NCBI GenBank assembly: GCA_020849035.1
Contig: JADLHC010000127.1
Location: 1 to 44,955 of the forward strand
Source: Planctomycetia bacterium
GTDB lineage: Bacteria > Planctomycetota > MHYJ01 > WSZJ01
DNA: 44,955 bases
Direction: 5' to 3'
Numbering within the stretch: the stretch's first letter is position 1; the number at the start of each line of letters is the position of its first letter. Shown here in pieces: positions 31,022-41,867 of the stretch. The notes beneath the pieces are model-generated. The model was not told where the DNA came from. It searched no databases and saw nothing but the letters and a program-made list of their open reading frames with translations. The translations under genes were made by a program, and so were the position numbers.

Positions 31022-33676
31022 TCAGCGGGGCGGATAGACCCTGTCGAGCCTCTCCCTGAGCGCCTGCTGCGCCGTCCCGGAGAGGCCGTCGGCGATGCGC
31101 GCCCAGTTGCGGCGGATGCCGGAGCGGCGCAGGGAAGCGTCGGTGCCGAGCGGGGTGTCGCCGAAGACGGTCCCGGGGCGGGCGGCCTCGGTGACCGTGA
31201 CGTCTCCCGCGGGCGAGACGTGAATGATGCGCACGGTCCCGTCCGGAGAATTGAGGCTCCAGCGGCCGGCGCGGAAGTCGATCCCGAGCGGGATGGAGAT
31301 GGAGCGCAGGCGCGGTTCGTCGTTGTCGCGGAGGCGGGCGTCCACGTTGAAGCGGCCCGCCGTGACGATCTCGGTCCCCTCGTAGGGGCAGTGATCCGGA
31401 TTGGCGGGGCACGCGGTGCAGGCGCCGGGCGGGTGGGCGGCGCCGCGCGGCGGGGCGCCTGCTCGCCGGGGCGGGCAGTTGCAGCGGCTGGCGACGAGGT
31501 GGTTCTTCAGGGAGATGAAATCGGCGCCGGCAACGTCGATGTTCTCCGCGCCCCAGCAGGACCAGAACACGAGGCGGCGGACCGGAGTCCGGACCATCCG
31601 CTTGAAGTCCTCGACCACGGCGTGGAACGCGCCGCTGCTGCCGTGGTAGATGAACATCACCTCGTGCCACTTGTGGCAGTTCCCGAAGTGCGCGGAGAGG
31701 TCCTTTCCGCCGCGCGGGCGCGTGGTGCGGTACCCGGTCAGGCGGCGCCACTCCCTCCCCGTGTGGTTGAGGACGGTGGCGGGCGAGCCGCCGGCGTCGA
31801 GGTCGTCGTAGATGACGACATGAAAATGCGGATCGGGGTTGGCGGCGGCCATCGCGGCGGCGTACCGGCGCGCCGCGCAGATCGCCGTGTCGAGAGTGCG
31901 GAACCCTTCGCTGCTGTTCTCGTCGTAAAGCGGGTGCGCCCCGATCAGCGCCTCGTGCCGCGCGCGCTTCGCCTCGTCCGGCCGACCGGCCCGCGCGGGC
32001 GGGATGTCGAACTCGTCCCGCGCCACGCCGTCCAGCTCGCGCTTCACGTCGTCCATGCTCCCCCCGGCCGCCAGGCGGTTCCACAGCCCGCCCGAGACGA
32101 CCACGAGCCGGCACGGCCGGCAGGCGCACGGGTCGGGCGGCGGCGCGGCGGCCCGCCCGTTGTCGATCTCGAACCACGTGCGCGAAACCTCCTCTTCGTC
32201 CCACGGCACCGCCAGGAACGTCGTGTCGTCGGCCCGCCCTTCCCCGTCGCACGCGACCGCGACGAAGCCGGGGTCGCGGTCCTTCTGGGCGACGGGGACG
32301 AAGCGTGTTCCGCCTGACGCGGCGCAGGGGATGACGAGCTCGACGAGGCCGCCGCCGACGGGGCGGGAGACGCAGCCGGGGACTTCGGAGGAGCAGGCGC
32401 GCTCGGCGTCGCTGAGGATCCCGGCTTCGGGCGCGGACGCGGCGTCGCCGGGGCACTCGGGGCCGTCGGAGGCGAGCAGCCGGTCTTCGCAGGCGGGGTC
32501 GGTGGTGAGGTCCTCGCTCTCGTAGAAGAACTGGTGCATGCCGCCGCGCGACGCGCGGAGAGTGCCAAGCTGGGCCGTGCCGGACCCCGCGGGGAGGGTA
32601 CCGCTGCAGGAGGTCCCCGCCGGGGTGCCGGCCGCCGGCGTGAACGTCATGTCGTCGTCCGTGCGGATCGTCCACCGCTGTGCGCGCCGGCCCGAGTACT
32701 CGCAGACGACGGGCGCGCCGGACGAGAGCGACCCCGCGGTCGGGTTCGCCATCGAGCGGCAGGGGGGCTCGAGCGGAAGGGTCTCGGTCTCGGCGGCGCC
32801 GTCCTCGGCGAAGGAAGCGAGGGTTGCGGAGTCGCCGAGCGCGGCGGCGTCGAGCCCGCCGGCGCCCGCCTCGCAGGCGCCGAGGAAGGACGCGTTCCGC
32901 AGGAGGGGTTTCCACGGCACGGCGACCTCGCGTCCGTCGGCCTGCCGGAAGATCACGAAGTCGCGCCGGTCCTCCGAAGGCGCGCCGAGCTTCGAGTCGG
33001 CGTAAAGTAGGCTCCGCCCGATCACGGGCTTGCCGTTCGTGTGCAGGAACGAGAGGCCCTTCCCCGCCGCCTTTGCGTCGCGGCGGACGTGGATCTCCAG
33101 CGCGGCGACGACGCGGCCTTTCGAGTCGCGCCAGACGGCGAGCTTCGGGGCGGAGGGGTGTTTCGCGCTTTCGTACTGGCGCAGGGTGAGGTCGGGGTAG
33201 GAGAAGAAGACGAGGCGGGCGGACTGCTCTGGTGTCACGGAGAGGCGGCCGGGGAGGGCGCGGCCCTCGCCCGGGGCGGGCGCCGGGCGGTCCGCGGCGA
33301 CGTCGAGGCCGAGGGTCGTGGCGAAGGGATAGGGCGCCGGGAGGAGGAGGCGGGTTTCGCCCCCGGCCGGCGCGCGGACGGCGAGCCAGCCGTCGCCGCC
33401 GGTGCGGAATTCGCGGCGGAGGGTGGCGTCCGCGAACCATCGCGCGCGCACGAACCCGGCGGACTCCGCGCCGGGAGCGCGCAGGACGACCTCCCACGCC
33501 CCCTGTTCCGCGTTCCACGCGGCCGAGGCGACGGTCAGCGCGCCGCCGAGCGCCGACGCGCCGGGCTGAAGCGGCCAGAGCGACTCGACGCCGGGGGCCG
33601 GACGCTCGGGCCCACGCGACGGCGACGAGCACGAGACGAGCGCGACGGCAACCAGCGCGGCGGCGAGGCGTTTCAT
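31022..33676 (-). CDS. Large secreted lipoprotein with possible caspase-like domain
   Basis: An 884-aa protein. The signal peptide ends in lipobox LVSC (Cys16). Residues ~30-500 are beta-rich and contain many Cys. A region from ~520 to ~730 has VVIYDDLDAGG (620-630), then MFIYHGSSG (674-682) and RLVFWSCWGAEN (701-712). A His-Gly after a hydrophobic strand and a Cys after another strand are the arrangement of caspase/CHAT-type proteases, so H678 and C707 could be a dyad. A Cys-rich linker (732-763) and a C-terminal beta domain follow. ATG 33676 has GGAGG upstream. It is divergent from a true caspase-like gene with only 100 bases between. Family not recognised. Confidence 0.75.
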   Translation of the reverse strand: MKRLAAALVAVALVSCSSPSRGPERPAPGVESLWPLQPGASALGGALTVASAAWNAEQGAWEVVLRAPGAESAGFVRARWFADATLRREFRTGGDGWLAVRAPAGGETRLLLPAPYPFATTLGLDVAADRPAPAPGEGRALPGRLSVTPEQSARLVFFSYPDLTLRQYESAKHPSAPKLAVWRDSKGRVVAALEIHVRRDAKAAGKGLSFLHTNGKPVIGRSLLYADSKLGAPSEDRRDFVIFRQADGREVAVPWKPLLRNASFLGACEAGAGGLDAAALGDSATLASFAEDGAAETETLPLEPPCRSMANPTAGSLSSGAPVVCEYSGRRAQRWTIRTDDDMTFTPAAGTPAGTSCSGTLPAGSGTAQLGTLRASRGGMHQFFYESEDLTTDPACEDRLLASDGPECPGDAASAPEAGILSDAERACSSEVPGCVSRPVGGGLVELVIPCAASGGTRFVPVAQKDRDPGFVAVACDGEGRADDTTFLAVPWDEEEVSRTWFEIDNGRAAAPPPDPCACRPCRLVVVSGGLWNRLAAGGSMDDVKRELDGVARDEFDIPPARAGRPDEAKRARHEALIGAHPLYDENSSEGFRTLDTAICAARRYAAAMAAANPDPHFHVVIYDDLDAGGSPATVLNHTGREWRRLTGYRTTRPRGGKDLSAHFGNCHKWHEVMFIYHGSSGAFHAVVEDFKRMVRTPVRRLVFWSCWGAENIDVAGADFISLKNHLVASRCNCPPRRAGAPPRGAAHPPGACTACPANPDHCPYEGTEIVTAGRFNVDARLRDNDEPRLRSISIPLGIDFRAGRWSLNSPDGTVRIIHVSPAGDVTVTEAARPGTVFGDTPLGTDASLRRSGIRRNWARIADGLSGTAQQALRERLDRVYPPR

Positions 33677-33776: not shown

Positions 33777-35285
33777 ATGCGCAGAACCCTCCTCGCCGCC
33801 GCCCTCCTCCTCCCCCGCTTCGCCGCCGCCGGCGACCCCGGCGCCTGGAACCCGCAGGACACCTTCGTCTTCGTCGCGAGCATCATCGAGTGGCCCGGCG
33901 ACGGCCTCGCCGCGTTCAAGGACGAGCGCCGCGACGACGCGTTCGTCGCCCAGCTCAAGGCGTGCGGCGTGCCCGCGGGCAACGTCGTCTTCCTGAAGGA
34001 CAAGGAAGCCACGCTCGCCGCAATGCGGAAGGAGTTCGTGGCGCTCGCGCGCCGCGGCGGCGAGGGCAGCACGTTCGTGTTCTATTTCCAGGGCCACGGC
34101 CTCAGCCGCAAGGAGAAGACCTGGCTCGCCTGCTACGACGTGGACCTCAAGGACTACGCCACCGCGTTCGACGTGGACGAGATCTTCCCGGTGCTCGACA
34201 AGGAGTGGAAGGGCTCGCGGCTGCTGCTGATCGGGGACTGCTGCCACTCCGGCGCGCTCGGCCGCGTCGTTGACCACTTCGCCGGGAAATCCTCCGTGCG
34301 CGCCGCGTGCCTTCCTTCCGCGGCCGCTTCCAACACGTCCACATCGCACTGGACGTTCACGGAGTCGCTCATCGCGGCGCTCGCGGGCGACGGCGCGGTG
34401 GACCGGAACCGCGACGGGAAGATCACGTTCGGCGAAGCGGAGGCGTTCGCGCACGACGAGATGAAGTTCCGGGAGAACCAGCTGTGCCGTGGGAAGCGGG
34501 GAGAGGGGTTCGACGCGGGGTGGGTGCTGCGGGAAGTGGCTCCGGACAAGCCGGCGCCTGCGAAGGCGGAGGGGCGGTGGCAGGTCGGGGACTACGTGGA
34601 CGCGTGCGACCGGGACGGGAAGTGGTACGTGTCGCAGGTGCTCGCGGTGAAGGACGGGAAGTGCCGGATCCACTACCTCGGATGGGACGCGAAGTGGGAC
34701 GAGTGGGTGGGCCCGGAGAAGGTGCGGCCGATCGAGCGGAAGAAGCTCAAGGTAGGCGAGCGGTACGAAGTCGAGTGGCGTCCCGGGCAGTGGTTCCTGG
34801 CGACGGTGACGAAGGAGGAGGACGACTTCTACTACGTGCACTACGAGGGCGAGGAGGGGGACGACGACGAGTGGGTGACGGCGGACCGTGCCCGGCCGCC
34901 GGCGGAGGGGGCGGCCCCGCCTCCCCCGGAGTTCGCGGCGCTCGCGCCGCGCGCGCTTGCGAAGGGCGACGCGGTCGCTGCGCGGTGGCGCAGGGCCTGG
35001 TACCTGGCCGAGGTGACGTCGGTGGACGCCGGCGTGCACGCGGTGAAGTACGCGGACGGCGACACGGGGTCGCTGTCGACCGCGGACCTCATTGCCGTGG
35101 CGACGGCCGCCGAGATCGCCCCCGGCGAGCGCGTCCTGGCGTGCTGGAACGGCAAGCCGCAGATGTTCCCCGGAAGCGTGGTCTCGAAGACGGACAAAGG
35201 CTGCGTCGTGAAGTGGGAGGACGGCACGAAGCCGTCGGAGGTCCCATTCGGGCAGTTTGCGCGGATCCGGCCGGCGAAGAAGTAG
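33777..35285 (+). CDS. Secreted caspase-like peptidase with EF-hand loop and four Tudor-like repeats
   Basis: A 502-aa exported protein (signal peptide ~1-18). The caspase fold covers ~25-250: H107 in YFQGHGL and C156 in GDCCHSGAL form the C14-type dyad. DRNRDGKITFGE (209-220) is a canonical calcium-binding EF-hand loop inside it. Four small beta-barrel repeats follow: ~266-319 (GDYVDACDRDGKWY ... YLGWDAKWDEWV), ~323-373, ~393-441 and ~446-499; the first two look like Tudor-knot/chromo-barrel domains. Such barrels bind proteins or nucleic acids; in a secreted protein the ligand is unclear. ATG 33777 with GGGAG six bases upstream; a -10-like TATCAT is at 33744. Confidence 0.93.
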   Translation: MRRTLLAAALLLPRFAAAGDPGAWNPQDTFVFVASIIEWPGDGLAAFKDERRDDAFVAQLKACGVPAGNVVFLKDKEATLAAMRKEFVALARRGGEGSTFVFYFQGHGLSRKEKTWLACYDVDLKDYATAFDVDEIFPVLDKEWKGSRLLLIGDCCHSGALGRVVDHFAGKSSVRAACLPSAAASNTSTSHWTFTESLIAALAGDGAVDRNRDGKITFGEAEAFAHDEMKFRENQLCRGKRGEGFDAGWVLREVAPDKPAPAKAEGRWQVGDYVDACDRDGKWYVSQVLAVKDGKCRIHYLGWDAKWDEWVGPEKVRPIERKKLKVGERYEVEWRPGQWFLATVTKEEDDFYYVHYEGEEGDDDEWVTADRARPPAEGAAPPPPEFAALAPRALAKGDAVAARWRRAWYLAEVTSVDAGVHAVKYADGDTGSLSTADLIAVATAAEIAPGERVLACWNGKPQMFPGSVVSKTDKGCVVKWEDGTKPSEVPFGQFARIRPAKK

Positions 35286-36869: not shown

Positions 36870-39626
36870 CTACTTTCCTTCCTGGCCGTCCTCCTTCTTC
36901 TTCTTCTTCCCGCCGCCCGCGAAGTCGCCCACCTGCACGAGCGCCATCTTCGACGGGTCGATGTACTTGCGGAGCGCGGCGTTGACGTCGTCCAGCGTGA
37001 GCTTCTCGGCCGCCGTGTCGAGCTCGGTCCAGAACCCGAAGTCCTTCCCGGCGATCCGGAGCTGGACGATCGTGCCGGAGAGGCGCCCATCGTCGGCGCG
37101 CCCCTGGGCGACCTGGTTGGCCCGCGACTTCTTGAACGCCTCAAGCTCCTCGGCCGTGACGCCCGACTTCAGCGCCTCCGCCAGCTCGGCCCGGATGATT
37201 TCCAGCGCCTTCCCGGCGTTCTCCGGCTTCGTCATCGAGTACAGGATGACCATCCCGAAGTCGCCGCGGAAATCGGCGACGACGTTCCCGCCCGTCGCAT
37301 AGCTCAGCGCCTTCTCGCCGCGGACCTTCTTCGGGATGCGCGCCGCCATCTGGTCCTCGAACAGCGCGTTGGCCGCCGCGACGATCGCAAGGTAGTCCGG
37401 CGCCAGCACCGACAGCCGGATCGGCTGCAGCAGCACCGTGAACGCGCTCGGCTTCCCCGGCGTCTCCACCTTGACTTCCGTCCTCAGCAGCCCCTCGACC
37501 GCGTCGTTCGACTCGCGCACGCCCGCCTTCTCCGCCTTCCAGTCCGCCAGCACCGGCTTCAGCGCCGCCTCCACGTCCTTCGAGTCCAGGTCGCCCACGA
37601 GGCCTCCGACCATTCCCTCGGCACCGAGGAACCGCTTGTGGAACGCCATCAGGTCCGCCACGGTCAGCTTCTCGAGCCCCGCGATCTGCTCGTCCGGCGT
37701 CCGGCCGCGGCGCGGGTCGCCCTCGGCGAAGAAGATCGTCGGGACGGTCTGCTGGAAGATCACCTGCGGCTCGTCGCGCATCGAGTTGATCTGGTCCTTC
37801 GTGCGGCGGACGAGCTCCTGGAGCGACGGCTCCTCGATGAACGGCGTCCGCAGCATCTCGCCCGCGATGGCCATCGCCTCCGCGAACGACTCCTTCGTGG
37901 TCTGGACCGAAACCGACAGCGCGTCGATCGAAATGCTGACCCCGATCTCCGTCTTCATCGCGGCCAGCTTCTTCTTCAGCTCGTCCTTCGAAAACGCCTT
38001 CGTCCGCTCGGTCATCAGGTCCGCGAGCGCCTCCCCGGCCGCATCGAACGGGAAGACCTCCTTGCGCCCCGCCAGCGGGACATTGAGCTGAAGGTGAATC
38101 CGGTCGCCCTTCACCTCCTTGCGGACCACGCCAATCTGCGCCGGGCCGACCGCCAGCCACTTCAGCGCCGCCTGCACCCCGGCCGCCGTGTACTCGAACT
38201 CCTTCACTTTCTTCGAGGTCGCCGGAAGCTTCGACAGGAGCGCGTCGTGGGTGGAAGCGTCGGGTTCCGGCTCGATCTTGACCGCGCCGGCCTCGTCGTC
38301 CGGCGTGAAGCGGCCGACGACGCGGTTCTCGAGGCGGATGTACTTCGCGGCGAAGGCCTTGACCTGGTCGAGCGTGATGGCCTTGGTCTGCTCGCGGCGG
38401 GCGAGGAGGAGCTTCCAGGAGCCCCACGACTCGGCCTCGCTGAGGGCCATGGAGAGGCGCTCGGGGCTGTTGAAGAGCTCGTCGAAGTCGCGCTCCATCT
38501 CGTGCTTGGCGCGCTCGAAGTCATCCTCGGAGAGGTTCGCGGACTGTTTCTCGAGGAGGTCGAGGATCGCGGCTTCGACGGCCTCGGGGTCCTTCTCCTT
38601 CGGGACCGTGGCGAGGACGAAGAACGGCGACGCGTAGCGGAGGCTCATCGTCCCGCAGCCGGCGGTTCCCGCCAGGCCCTTCGCCACGACCCGCTCGTAC
38701 AGGGGGCCGGACGTGCCGGAGGAGAGCATCTGCGCGTAAACGTCGGCGATCGCGGCGTCCGGGTGCGTGGAGCCCGGGAGGCGGTAGCCGACGAGCACGA
38801 CGTGCGCCTCGCCGGGCTTGCGGATGGTGTACCGCCGCTCGCCGAGCGACGCCGGCTCGCGCGTCGTGTATCCCGGCCGGCCGGCGCCCGAGCCCTGGAG
38901 CGGCCCGAAATGCTTCTTCACCATCTCCAGCGCGCGCGCCGTCTCGAACTTGCCCGTGACGATGAGCATCGCGTTGTCCGGGCGGTAGTACTTCCGGTAG
39001 AAGGCGAGGATGTTGTCGACCTTGAGCGACTTGAAGTCCTCGATCGTGCCGATCGGCTCGCGCGAGTAGGCGTGGAAGTCGAACATCGCGCCGAACATCC
39101 CCATGACGACGAGGCGCTGCGGGTTGGAGGAGCCGATGTCGAACTCGCTCTCGACGATCTTGCCCTCGCGCTCGAGGTCGGACGGATCGAGTCTGGCGCC
39201 TCCGAGGCGGCCGGCCTCGAGGCGGATGGCGGTCTCGAGGTTCTCGTCCGTCGCGTTCAGCGTCTCGAAGTAGTTCGTGCGGTCGAACCACGTCGTGCCG
39301 TTGTAGTTCGCGCCGAGCTCCTTGAGGGTCTTCGCGATGTCCGGGAACCCCTCGACCGAGTGGAACAGCACGTGCTCGAACACGTGCGCCATCCCCATCT
39401 CGCCGGCGCCCTCGTGGACGCTGCCGACGAGGACAGTCAGGTTCACCGTGACCTTCGGAGCCGTCGCGTCCGGGTACAGCAGGACCTTCAGCCCGTTGGC
39501 CATCCGGTACTCCTCGATGCCGAGGATCTGCGCGGTCCGTTCCGGCGCGCCTTCCTCCGCGCGCACGGCCAGGGACGAGAGAAGGGCGAGGACGGCGGAA
39601 GCGGCGGCGACGGCGTATCGGGTCAT
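36870..39626 (-). CDS. M16-family zinc peptidase, secreted, full double-length
   Basis: A 918-aa insulinase/pitrilysin-type peptidase with a signal peptide (~1-23). The inverted zinc motif HxxEH is HVFEH (H81, E84, H85), with a conserved Glu helix ~75 residues later (NLETAIRLEAGRL). Four M16 subdomains are recognisable; the second half lacks the motif, as expected. Such proteases degrade peptides in the periplasm. The C-terminus ends in a lysine run. ATG 39626 has GGAGG four bases upstream. Downstream lies the thioredoxin-like gene. Confidence 0.96.
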   Translation of the reverse strand: MTRYAVAAASAVLALLSSLAVRAEEGAPERTAQILGIEEYRMANGLKVLLYPDATAPKVTVNLTVLVGSVHEGAGEMGMAHVFEHVLFHSVEGFPDIAKTLKELGANYNGTTWFDRTNYFETLNATDENLETAIRLEAGRLGGARLDPSDLEREGKIVESEFDIGSSNPQRLVVMGMFGAMFDFHAYSREPIGTIEDFKSLKVDNILAFYRKYYRPDNAMLIVTGKFETARALEMVKKHFGPLQGSGAGRPGYTTREPASLGERRYTIRKPGEAHVVLVGYRLPGSTHPDAAIADVYAQMLSSGTSGPLYERVVAKGLAGTAGCGTMSLRYASPFFVLATVPKEKDPEAVEAAILDLLEKQSANLSEDDFERAKHEMERDFDELFNSPERLSMALSEAESWGSWKLLLARREQTKAITLDQVKAFAAKYIRLENRVVGRFTPDDEAGAVKIEPEPDASTHDALLSKLPATSKKVKEFEYTAAGVQAALKWLAVGPAQIGVVRKEVKGDRIHLQLNVPLAGRKEVFPFDAAGEALADLMTERTKAFSKDELKKKLAAMKTEIGVSISIDALSVSVQTTKESFAEAMAIAGEMLRTPFIEEPSLQELVRRTKDQINSMRDEPQVIFQQTVPTIFFAEGDPRRGRTPDEQIAGLEKLTVADLMAFHKRFLGAEGMVGGLVGDLDSKDVEAALKPVLADWKAEKAGVRESNDAVEGLLRTEVKVETPGKPSAFTVLLQPIRLSVLAPDYLAIVAAANALFEDQMAARIPKKVRGEKALSYATGGNVVADFRGDFGMVILYSMTKPENAGKALEIIRAELAEALKSGVTAEELEAFKKSRANQVAQGRADDGRLSGTIVQLRIAGKDFGFWTELDTAAEKLTLDDVNAALRKYIDPSKMALVQVGDFAGGGKKKKKEDGQEGK

Positions 39627-40332: not shown

Positions 40333-41244
40333 CTACCGCACCGCGCCATCCAGCATCTCCAGCGTCCCCTTCCGCGGGTCGATCCGCGCCGCCACGCCCT
40401 GGGGGATCGTGACCTTGTCGTCCACGTGCCCGTACGGCAGGCCGAACACGCAGGGGCGGCCCTTGAGCATCTTCGCGTAGTGCAGGAGCGTCGTGCGGAG
40501 CGACCTGCGCGGGCCGCAGTCGGACCAGGTCGTGAAGACAGCGCCGGCGATGCGGTCCCAGATGCCCGCGAGGCGGAGCTGGGCGAGCATGCGGTCCACG
40601 CGGCGGGTTTCCTCGTCGATGTCCTCGAGAACCAGGAGCGCGCCCTCGAACGAGGGAGCATACGGCGTGCCGAGAACCGTCTGGAGGATCGAGAGCGTGC
40701 CGCCGAGCAGCGGGCCCTGCGCCGGCCGCGTGCCGAGGAACTCGAGCGGCTTCTTCAGGCGGAAGCGTGCGGGCTCGGGGAGCTCGACGAGGGGCCAGAA
40801 GTGCTTCGCGGTGAAGCTCGGGAGGCCGCCGTCGAAGTCGGTAGCGACCATGGGTCCGGAGAAGGTGACGAGGCCGGTCTTCGCGTGGATCGCGAGCTGG
40901 GGCGCGGTGAGGTCGGAGTAGCCGACGAAGACCTTGGGGTGGCGGCGGACGAGCGCGTAGTCGAGGCGGTCGAGGAGGCGGGTGGCGCCGGCGCCGCCGC
41001 GGGCGCAGAAGATGCCCTTCACGGCGGGGTCGTGGAACGCGGCGTGGAGATCTTCGAGGCGGTCGTAGTCGCGGCCGCCGAGGTGATCGCACTTCTTCCC
41101 GACGTTCGCGCCGAGGACGACGCGGTAGCCGCGCTTCTCGATCTCCTTCACGCCGCGCCGGAGCGCCGCCCTGTCGGGCGCGGAGGAGGGCGCGACGACG
41201 GCGATGGTGTCGCCGGGGCGGAGGCGGGGCGGCTTGAGCGTCAC
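40333..41244 (-). CDS. ldcA: LD-carboxypeptidase, family S66
   Basis: A 303-aa S66 peptidase. The triad positions of LdcA are visible: S110 in VGYSDLT, E207 in LVLEDID and H273 in LPYGHVDD. LdcA cleaves the terminal D-Ala from recycled tetrapeptides in the cytoplasm; related MccF-type enzymes detoxify microcins, which cannot be excluded. The start is GTG 41244, overlapping the gmhA stop (GTGA); this also places the conserved KPPRLRPGDTIAVVAPSS beginning at residue 4. Peptidoglycan recycling would also involve the NagZ-like enzyme at the other end of the window. Confidence 0.93.
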   Translation of the reverse strand: MTLKPPRLRPGDTIAVVAPSSAPDRAALRRGVKEIEKRGYRVVLGANVGKKCDHLGGRDYDRLEDLHAAFHDPAVKGIFCARGGAGATRLLDRLDYALVRRHPKVFVGYSDLTAPQLAIHAKTGLVTFSGPMVATDFDGGLPSFTAKHFWPLVELPEPARFRLKKPLEFLGTRPAQGPLLGGTLSILQTVLGTPYAPSFEGALLVLEDIDEETRRVDRMLAQLRLAGIWDRIAGAVFTTWSDCGPRRSLRTTLLHYAKMLKGRPCVFGLPYGHVDDKVTIPQGVAARIDPRKGTLEMLDGAVR

Positions 41245-41867
41245 GCCTGCTCGAACGCCGCGCAGAGGATGTGACCGATGGACTCGTGGCACTCCTGCAC
41301 GATCGCGGTCTCCCTCGAGGGGACGCGCAGGCAGACGTCCACGAGGTCGGCGAGCTCGCCGCCGTCCTCGCCGGTGAGGCCGACGGTCTTCGCGCCGAGG
41401 GCGGATGCGGCCTTCGCGGCGGCGAGGACGTTCTTCGAGTTGCCGGAGGTCGAGATGAGGACGACGACGTCCTTCGGCTTCACGAGGGCCTCGACCTGGC
41501 GGCTGAAGACCTTCTCGAAGCCGAAGTCGTTCCCGGCGGCGGTGAGCGCGGAGGTGTCGGTCGTGAGCGCGACGGCGGCGATCGCGGGGCGGTTCTTCAC
41601 GTACCGGACGACGAGCTCGGTCGCCCAGTGCTGCGCGTCGGCGGCGCTGCCGCCGTTGCCGCAGAAGAAGACGGTTGCCCCTTTCTCGGAGGCCTCGCGG
41701 ACGGTGGCGACGAAGCGGGCGACCTCGTCGAGCATCGAGGTCAGGACCGCGGTCTTGGCCGCGATGGAGGCCTTGAGATGCGCCTCCGCGAGCTTGCGGA
41801 CCTTGAGCATGCCGGGGGTGAGGAAGAGCGTGGTGGCGAGCTCGGGCTTGCGGGGGGGTTTGGGCAT
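41241..41867 (-). CDS. gmhA: Sedoheptulose 7-phosphate isomerase
   Basis: A 208-aa SIS-domain isomerase that makes D-glycero-D-manno-heptose 7-phosphate, the first step to ADP-heptose for LPS core. CGNGGSAADA (69-78), LTTDTSALTAAGND (101-114), SGNSKN (141-146) and the QECHESIGH segment (191-199) match GmhA, including the zinc/catalytic Glu and His. An N-terminal extension of ~20 residues is present. hldE lies upstream in the same direction, with a large inverted repeat between. The stop is coupled to ldcA. No gmhB is in the window. Confidence 0.93.
   Translation of the reverse strand: MPKPPRKPELATTLFLTPGMLKVRKLAEAHLKASIAAKTAVLTSMLDEVARFVATVREASEKGATVFFCGNGGSAADAQHWATELVVRYVKNRPAIAAVALTTDTSALTAAGNDFGFEKVFSRQVEALVKPKDVVVLISTSGNSKNVLAAAKAASALGAKTVGLTGEDGGELADLVDVCLRVPSRETAIVQECHESIGHILCAAFEQA

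Follow-up and report, generated by a model that had tools for sequence, protein, structure and literature searches.

Can a single exported bacterial protein combine a caspase-type protease, a calcium-binding loop and barrels of the kind that read methylated lysine, and how might such parts work together outside the cell? This question is raised by a gene at 33777-35285 in a planctomycete stretch of 44,955 nucleotides (hereafter the window). The first-pass annotation had read its product as a secreted caspase-like peptidase with a complete His/Cys dyad, a canonical calcium loop and four Tudor-like repeats. It called this combination rare and put forward calcium dependence, as in metacaspases, and barrel-guided targeting as testable ideas.

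The gene lies on the forward strand, as do all features below unless stated otherwise. It is an intact open reading frame from ATG to stop that is matched by orthologues, and its 502-residue product is predicted to be an exported caspase-type peptidase with an EF-type loop and four Tudor-like barrels. Residues 1-18 (MRRTLLAAALLLPRFAAA; 33777-33830) form a predicted signal peptide, judging from hydropathy and a hydrophobic segment followed by AAA. Each of the 26 family members has an equivalent hydrophobic, export-like segment directly N-terminal of the domain (hydropathy only), in agreement with the proposed export. The AF2 model of the full chain, built on 12 sequences, reached a mean pLDDT of 88.6 and consists of a caspase-like domain and four β-barrels, with residues 1-19 at low pLDDT. 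Peptidase_C14, Agenet, Tudor-knot and Tudor_3 of Pfam are all matched above their curated cut-offs. Foldseek TM values for the whole chain were low, as is expected when several domains are compared together.

The caspase-fold domain spans residues 24-262 (33846-34562) and has a p10-like second half, as judged from Pfam, the AF2 model and Foldseek. Peptidase_C14 covers residues 76-163 with 24.8 bits. In Foldseek, this first domain matches MALT1 and metacaspases, with a TM of 0.62 by target length for the Candida glabrata metacaspase CgMCA-I (7qp1). Metacaspase-4, MCA2 and GSU0716 all align in profile alignments through the dyad of His107 (within QGHG; 34095-34097) and Cys156 (34242-34244), the second Cys of GDCCHSG. 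That this second Cys is the nucleophile is shown by its alignment with the catalytic Cys that 6w8r, a metacaspase-4 entry, carries as Ala. The first Cys is not required, since two family members (L066 and L067, from the finished genomes G286 and G320) have DHCFSG in place of DCCHSG around the catalytic Cys. Two residues before the nucleophile, Asp154 (34236-34238) aligns to the Asp of the MCA2 motif DC(C)HSG and occupies what we take to be the place of the S1-pocket Asp in metacaspases and MALT1. On this residue we base the prediction that cleavage probably occurs after basic residues. H107, D121, D154, C156, D209 and E220 are invariant in the 26 aligned members, which diverge to about 30% identity outside H107, Asp154 and C156. 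By its modelled caspase fold and its His/Cys dyad, the protein belongs to peptidase family C14 with putative proteolytic activity, as the first-pass annotation had proposed. Furthermore, a bacterial p20-type domain, the HC dyad and the acidic putative S1 residue D154 place it among the prokaryotic orthocaspases.

The metacaspase-type calcium site is a different matter. In T. brucei MCA2, the metal is bound by Asp173, 189, 190 and 220, of which Asp173, 189 and 220 are equivalent to the Ca2+ ligands Asp198, Asp214 and Asp245 of CgMCA-I (PMC9622860). The four MCA2 positions fall on K114, V133, D134 and R163 of the window protein, so that one of four is kept, in a profile alignment that was read by hand and is uncertain by about a residue at 133-134. 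AtMC4 likewise has an Arg at the place of MCA2 Asp220 (PMC7206013), and prokaryotic orthocaspases are described as calcium-independent (PMC5756287). With three of the four ligands replaced, we rejected membership of the metacaspases by their Ca2+ ligands, and calcium dependence of the metacaspase kind is unsupported. The EF-type loop, a different site, is thus the sole remaining basis of the calcium idea.

This loop comprises the 12 residues D209-E220 (DRNRDGKITFGE; 34401-34436) between two helices of the p10-like half and was delineated by conservation, EF-hand profile matches and the model. It has D at position 1, D/N at 3, D at 5, G at 6, I at 8 and E at 12, together with two flanking helices, as defines an EF-hand loop. 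The full-chain model places it between helices 193-202 and 218-233, with the incoming helix stopping a few residues ahead of it and a short strand at 215-217, like those of EF-hands. Across the 26 members, position 211 is D, N or S, 213 is D or N, 214 is G in 24 and 216 is I, L or V. Translated in six frames, the window has 89,906 residues, among which DRNRDGKITFGE is the sole match to the strict EF loop pattern; of 20,000 shuffles of the window protein, 32 (0.16%) contain one. Over the loop stretch, a profile of the caspase region reaches Calcium binding protein 2 (2jnx; E 2.3e-4), STIM2 (3.3e-3) and calmodulin (7e-3). Taken together, the complete pattern, the invariant D209 and E220 and the profile matches to EF-hand proteins bear out a canonical calcium-type loop. 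The strict pattern scan of the whole protein gave this one loop and no paired EF hands, and a single unpaired EF-type loop is usually a weak Ca2+ binder.

The strict loop is also present in 15 of 48 sampled other planctomycete caspases with a recognisable dyad, where it lies 57-74 residues C-terminal to the Cys motif, compared with 52-55 in the family of the window gene. Because it is preceded by the same FT-helix segment, we consider the loop a part of the bacterial caspase domain rather than an added module. For archaeal orthocaspases, EF-hand motifs have been mentioned as extra domains (PMC6426788). No significant link between loop and export was found among the other planctomycete caspases (exported in 12/15 with the loop and 16/33 without it; Fisher p 0.06 at the strictest cut-off and 0.20-0.30 at others), and many of the loop-bearing cases in these counts are paralogues from one genome. 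One contig (G031, contig C25; L101, L116, L118-L120, L123, L125, L128) carries about ten Peptidase_C14 genes within 51 kb, several of which have the same EF-type loop.

The remainder of the chain folds in the AF2 model into four barrels with strands at residues 273-311, 329-368, 399-441 and 452-497. Barrel 1 (residues 268-320; 34578-34736) and barrel 2 (residues 324-375; 34746-34901) are of the Agenet/Tudor-knot type by Pfam and alignment; Agenet (43.4 bits) and Tudor-knot (36.3 bits) each match two stretches. Barrel 3 (residues 394-443; 34956-35105) forms the first half of a tandem Tudor. Barrel 4 (residues 449-500; 35121-35276) is Tudor_3/PHF20 Tudor2-like, judging from Pfam, the PHF20 alignment and the SGF29 fold, and its Tudor_3 match (residues 451-490, 33.3 bits, over the cut-off) recurs in all five orthologues. 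In hhalign, barrels 1 and 2 are clearly related, whereas barrels 3 and 4 have diverged from them and from each other. As the most diverged in sequence, barrels 3-4 were also modelled separately; the best model had a mean pLDDT of 85.5, the other four only 60-69. Its leading Foldseek hits are tandem Tudors, with SGF29 bound to H3K4me peptides ranking first (TM 0.71-0.81 by query) and BAHCC1, SETDB1 and 53BP1 following. In the full-chain search, the hits to the tail are tandem Agenet, MBT and KOW barrels. We conclude that barrels 3-4 model as one tandem Tudor that is closest to SGF29, and that all four barrels have the fold of the Royal (chromo-like/Tudor) superfamily, an SH3-like barrel with some five strands, barrels 1-2 by Pfam and model and barrels 3-4 by fold search. 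The repeats are therefore Tudor-like on structure comparison, and their number of four holds by sequence and structure, but they represent two pairs of unlike kind.

Cage residues were mapped by hand from alignments. The cage of PHF20L1 Tudor1 consists of Y24, Y29, F47, W50 and Y54 with D23 (PMC13285377), which correspond to R279, Y284, Y300, W303, W307 and D278 of barrel 1. The PHF20 Tudor positions W97, Y103, F120 and D122 (PMC4792926; PMC13285377) correspond to W457, F464, W480 and D482 of barrel 4. These positions bind methyl-lysine in PHF20L1 Tudor1 and in PHF20/PHF20L1 Tudor2 (PMC13285377, PMC4792926). Across all five orthologues, the cage aromatics of barrels 1 and 4 and D482 are unchanged apart from F/Y exchanges. 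In barrel 3, with W404, Y409, Y425 and D427, Y409 is replaced by F, F, F and H in the other orthologues. Of the four cage positions of barrel 1, barrel 2 has aromatics at two, F340 and Y356, and none at the other two. Thus, the predicted aromatic cage is complete in barrel 4, has four of five aromatics in barrel 1, is similar in barrel 3 and partial in barrel 2. With cages kept in barrels 1 and 4 and largely in barrel 3, barrel-guided targeting stands as an idea that can be tested.

All five genomes of the genus contain the four-barrel gene, the other four copies being 66-74% identical to that of the window, and three of the five also have a two-barrel paralogue, divided over two contigs in one of them. 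Of 392 Planctomycetota genomes sampled in a profile search, 24 have the core of caspase, EF loop and two barrels, among them all five of the genus, and this core constitutes a stand-alone family. Barrels 3 and 4 are confined to the genus among the family sequences compared, which suggests that they were joined only recently to an already exported protein of older design. A scan of genome contigs gave four loci, namely two full-length congeners and two caspase-free Tudor-knot proteins. In the same genus, G000 (contig C338, L002: 889-2793) and G003 (contig C36, L041) encode exported-looking proteins that have about three Agenet/Tudor-type barrels but lack a caspase.

Kaur et al. 2018 described fusions of exported bacterial caspases with tandem chromo-like domains for planctomycetes, cyanobacteria, bacteroidetes and chloroflexi and proposed the same targeting idea for the general class (PMC5906684). 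The window protein has the architecture given there, combining a predicted signal peptide, a caspase and tandem chromo-like domains in one chain, and on this account the architecture is of a known kind. Given the published fusion, the 24 of 392 genomes with the core and the loop in 15 of 48 other caspases, the combination cannot be called rare. What this analysis adds is, for this family, an EF-type loop that is built into the caspase domain as a constant feature, the SGF29-like second barrel pair limited to one genus, and the cage-by-cage mapping together with the evidence against a metacaspase-type calcium site.

The genomic neighbourhood gave no partner gene that hints at a substrate, the neighbours being shared with one of the four other genus genomes. 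The flanking genes on both sides are on the opposite strand, which excludes a shared operon. A conserved operon or partner was rejected, as apart from the congener G001 no neighbour is common to the other eight loci compared. Downstream, an M16 peptidase (36870-39626, reverse strand) and an LD-carboxypeptidase (S66; 40333-41292, reverse strand) keep their order in G001 only. Adjoining the caspase gene and divergent from it, 31022-33676 (reverse strand) encodes an 884-residue lipoprotein-like protein with no Pfam match; a 56% identical copy occurs only in G001, with a weak match in G020, and its FIYHGSSG...VFWSCWG spacing resembles a caspase dyad. An anti-phage caspase system was also rejected, since the PADLOC match is only the general 'caspase' one (41 bits) and export and the lack of partners argue against it. 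Beyond generic caspases, a viral fold search returned only hits that were unrelated or SH3-like.

How might these parts act together? We favour, with middling confidence, an exported orthocaspase-like cysteine endopeptidase whose barrels attach it to side chains that are cationic or methylated and in which Ca2+ is mainly structural; the confidences of this account and of its rivals are not mutually exclusive. Fold, dyad, loop, barrels, cages and their conservation were computed; the steps that concern activity, calcium and ligand are inferred. After export, the barrels would anchor the enzyme on cationic side chains of surface or matrix peptides, the ligand probably being methylated lysine or a lysine-like diamine, and the tethered caspase domain would cleave nearby chains after basic residues. 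Ca2+, which is abundant outside the cytoplasm, would occupy the EF-type loop and fix its two flanking helices, acting mainly as a structural ion, perhaps also as a pre-export safeguard, and not as a signal switch. Since the dyad, Asp154 and the loop ends are invariant in 26 members across the phylum, active site and loop are conserved jointly. The two cage positions missing from the sequence of barrel 2 count against this account. So do the calcium independence reported for the orthocaspases studied so far, the usually weak Ca2+ binding of an unpaired EF-type loop, the lack of a conserved neighbour that would point to a substrate, and the DNA binding of PHF20L1 Tudors. Alternatively, the loop of the same exported protease might be a true switch, the enzyme becoming active only once Ca2+ has ordered the p10-like half and the active site. 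A switch would suit the conservation of all loop ligand positions alongside the dyad in 26 members and the modelled placement of the loop, which joins two helices of the p10-like half C-terminal to the active-site region. However, extracytoplasmic Ca2+ is normally high, so that such a switch would always be on. Moreover, the metacaspase Ca2+ ligands are not kept and orthocaspases are reported to be calcium-independent (PMC5756287), which makes a switch unlikely in our view.

We give real, if lesser, weight to the barrels serving for general attachment to the wall, matrix or extracellular DNA, with methylation irrelevant and the protease cutting whatever is near. Bacterial SH3-type domains in the same architectures bind peptidoglycan peptides, as discussed by Kaur et al. 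2018 (PMC5906684), and the cage of barrel 2 is partial. The Tudors of PHF20L1 bind DNA besides methyl-lysine, so the ligand of the barrels need not be a peptide, and Tudor pairs can lose methyl selectivity in this way (PMC13285377). Against general tethering speaks that all five orthologues retain the cage residues of barrels 1 and 4, the acidic D482 included. A non-proteolytic or highly restricted homologue, serving mainly as a scaffold or for self-processing only, is the least probable reading: a complete dyad does not prove proteolysis, as stated for orthocaspases (PMC5756287), but none of His107, Asp154 and Cys156 varies among 26 members whose remainder has diverged to about 30% identity. 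Quite improbable, too, is an exported caspase that requires calcium and in which the tandem Tudor barrels recognise methylated lysine or a lysine-like diamine and thereby direct cleavage outside the cell. If true, this would be a bacterial modification-guided protease, with cleavage steered by extracellular modification of surface or matrix proteins. Tudor-type domains that read methyl-lysine are known from their action on histones, yet bacteria export such domains fused to caspases. The window protein is compact, its active site and loop are kept across the phylum and its cages within the genus, and its family offers a direct test case for the ligand of bacterial barrels and the role of an EF-type loop in prokaryotic caspases.

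Among known systems, the only NCBIfam match is caspase_w_EACC1 (NF047832), at 41.1 bits against a cut-off of 140. An EACC1-associated caspase was rejected on this low score and because the window protein is predicted to be exported, stands alone and is not in a conflict system. With orthocaspases such as MaOC1 of Microcystis, it shares the p20-type domain, the HC dyad and the acidic residue next to the Cys; orthocaspases often have further C-terminal domains, as does the window protein, although MaOC1 has none. It differs from them in its predicted export, its conserved EF-type loop and its Tudor barrels, and orthocaspases are not reported to need calcium. Metacaspases (T. brucei MCA2, C. glabrata MCA-I, A. 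thaliana MC4) have the same caspase fold and DCC/DSC-H-S-G active site, but their Ca2+ ligands are mostly replaced here (K114, V133, R163) and the calcium-type loop lies elsewhere. Barrels 3-4 share the fold of the SGF29 tandem Tudor, and the cage positions of PHF20 Tudor2 and PHF20L1 Tudor1 recur in barrels 4 and 1, respectively. These three are eukaryotic histone readers, whereas the window protein is bacterial, predicted to be exported and fused to a protease, and a histone is an unlikely ligand of its barrels. Closest are the proteins of Kaur et al. 2018 (PMC5906684), which likewise join a signal peptide, a caspase-like peptidase and tandem chromo-like/Tudor barrels; the main text of that paper describes neither an EF-type loop inside the caspase domain nor a second, SGF29-like tandem Tudor. 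The four-barrel form with its conserved calcium-type loop is thus a testable variant of the design published in 2018.
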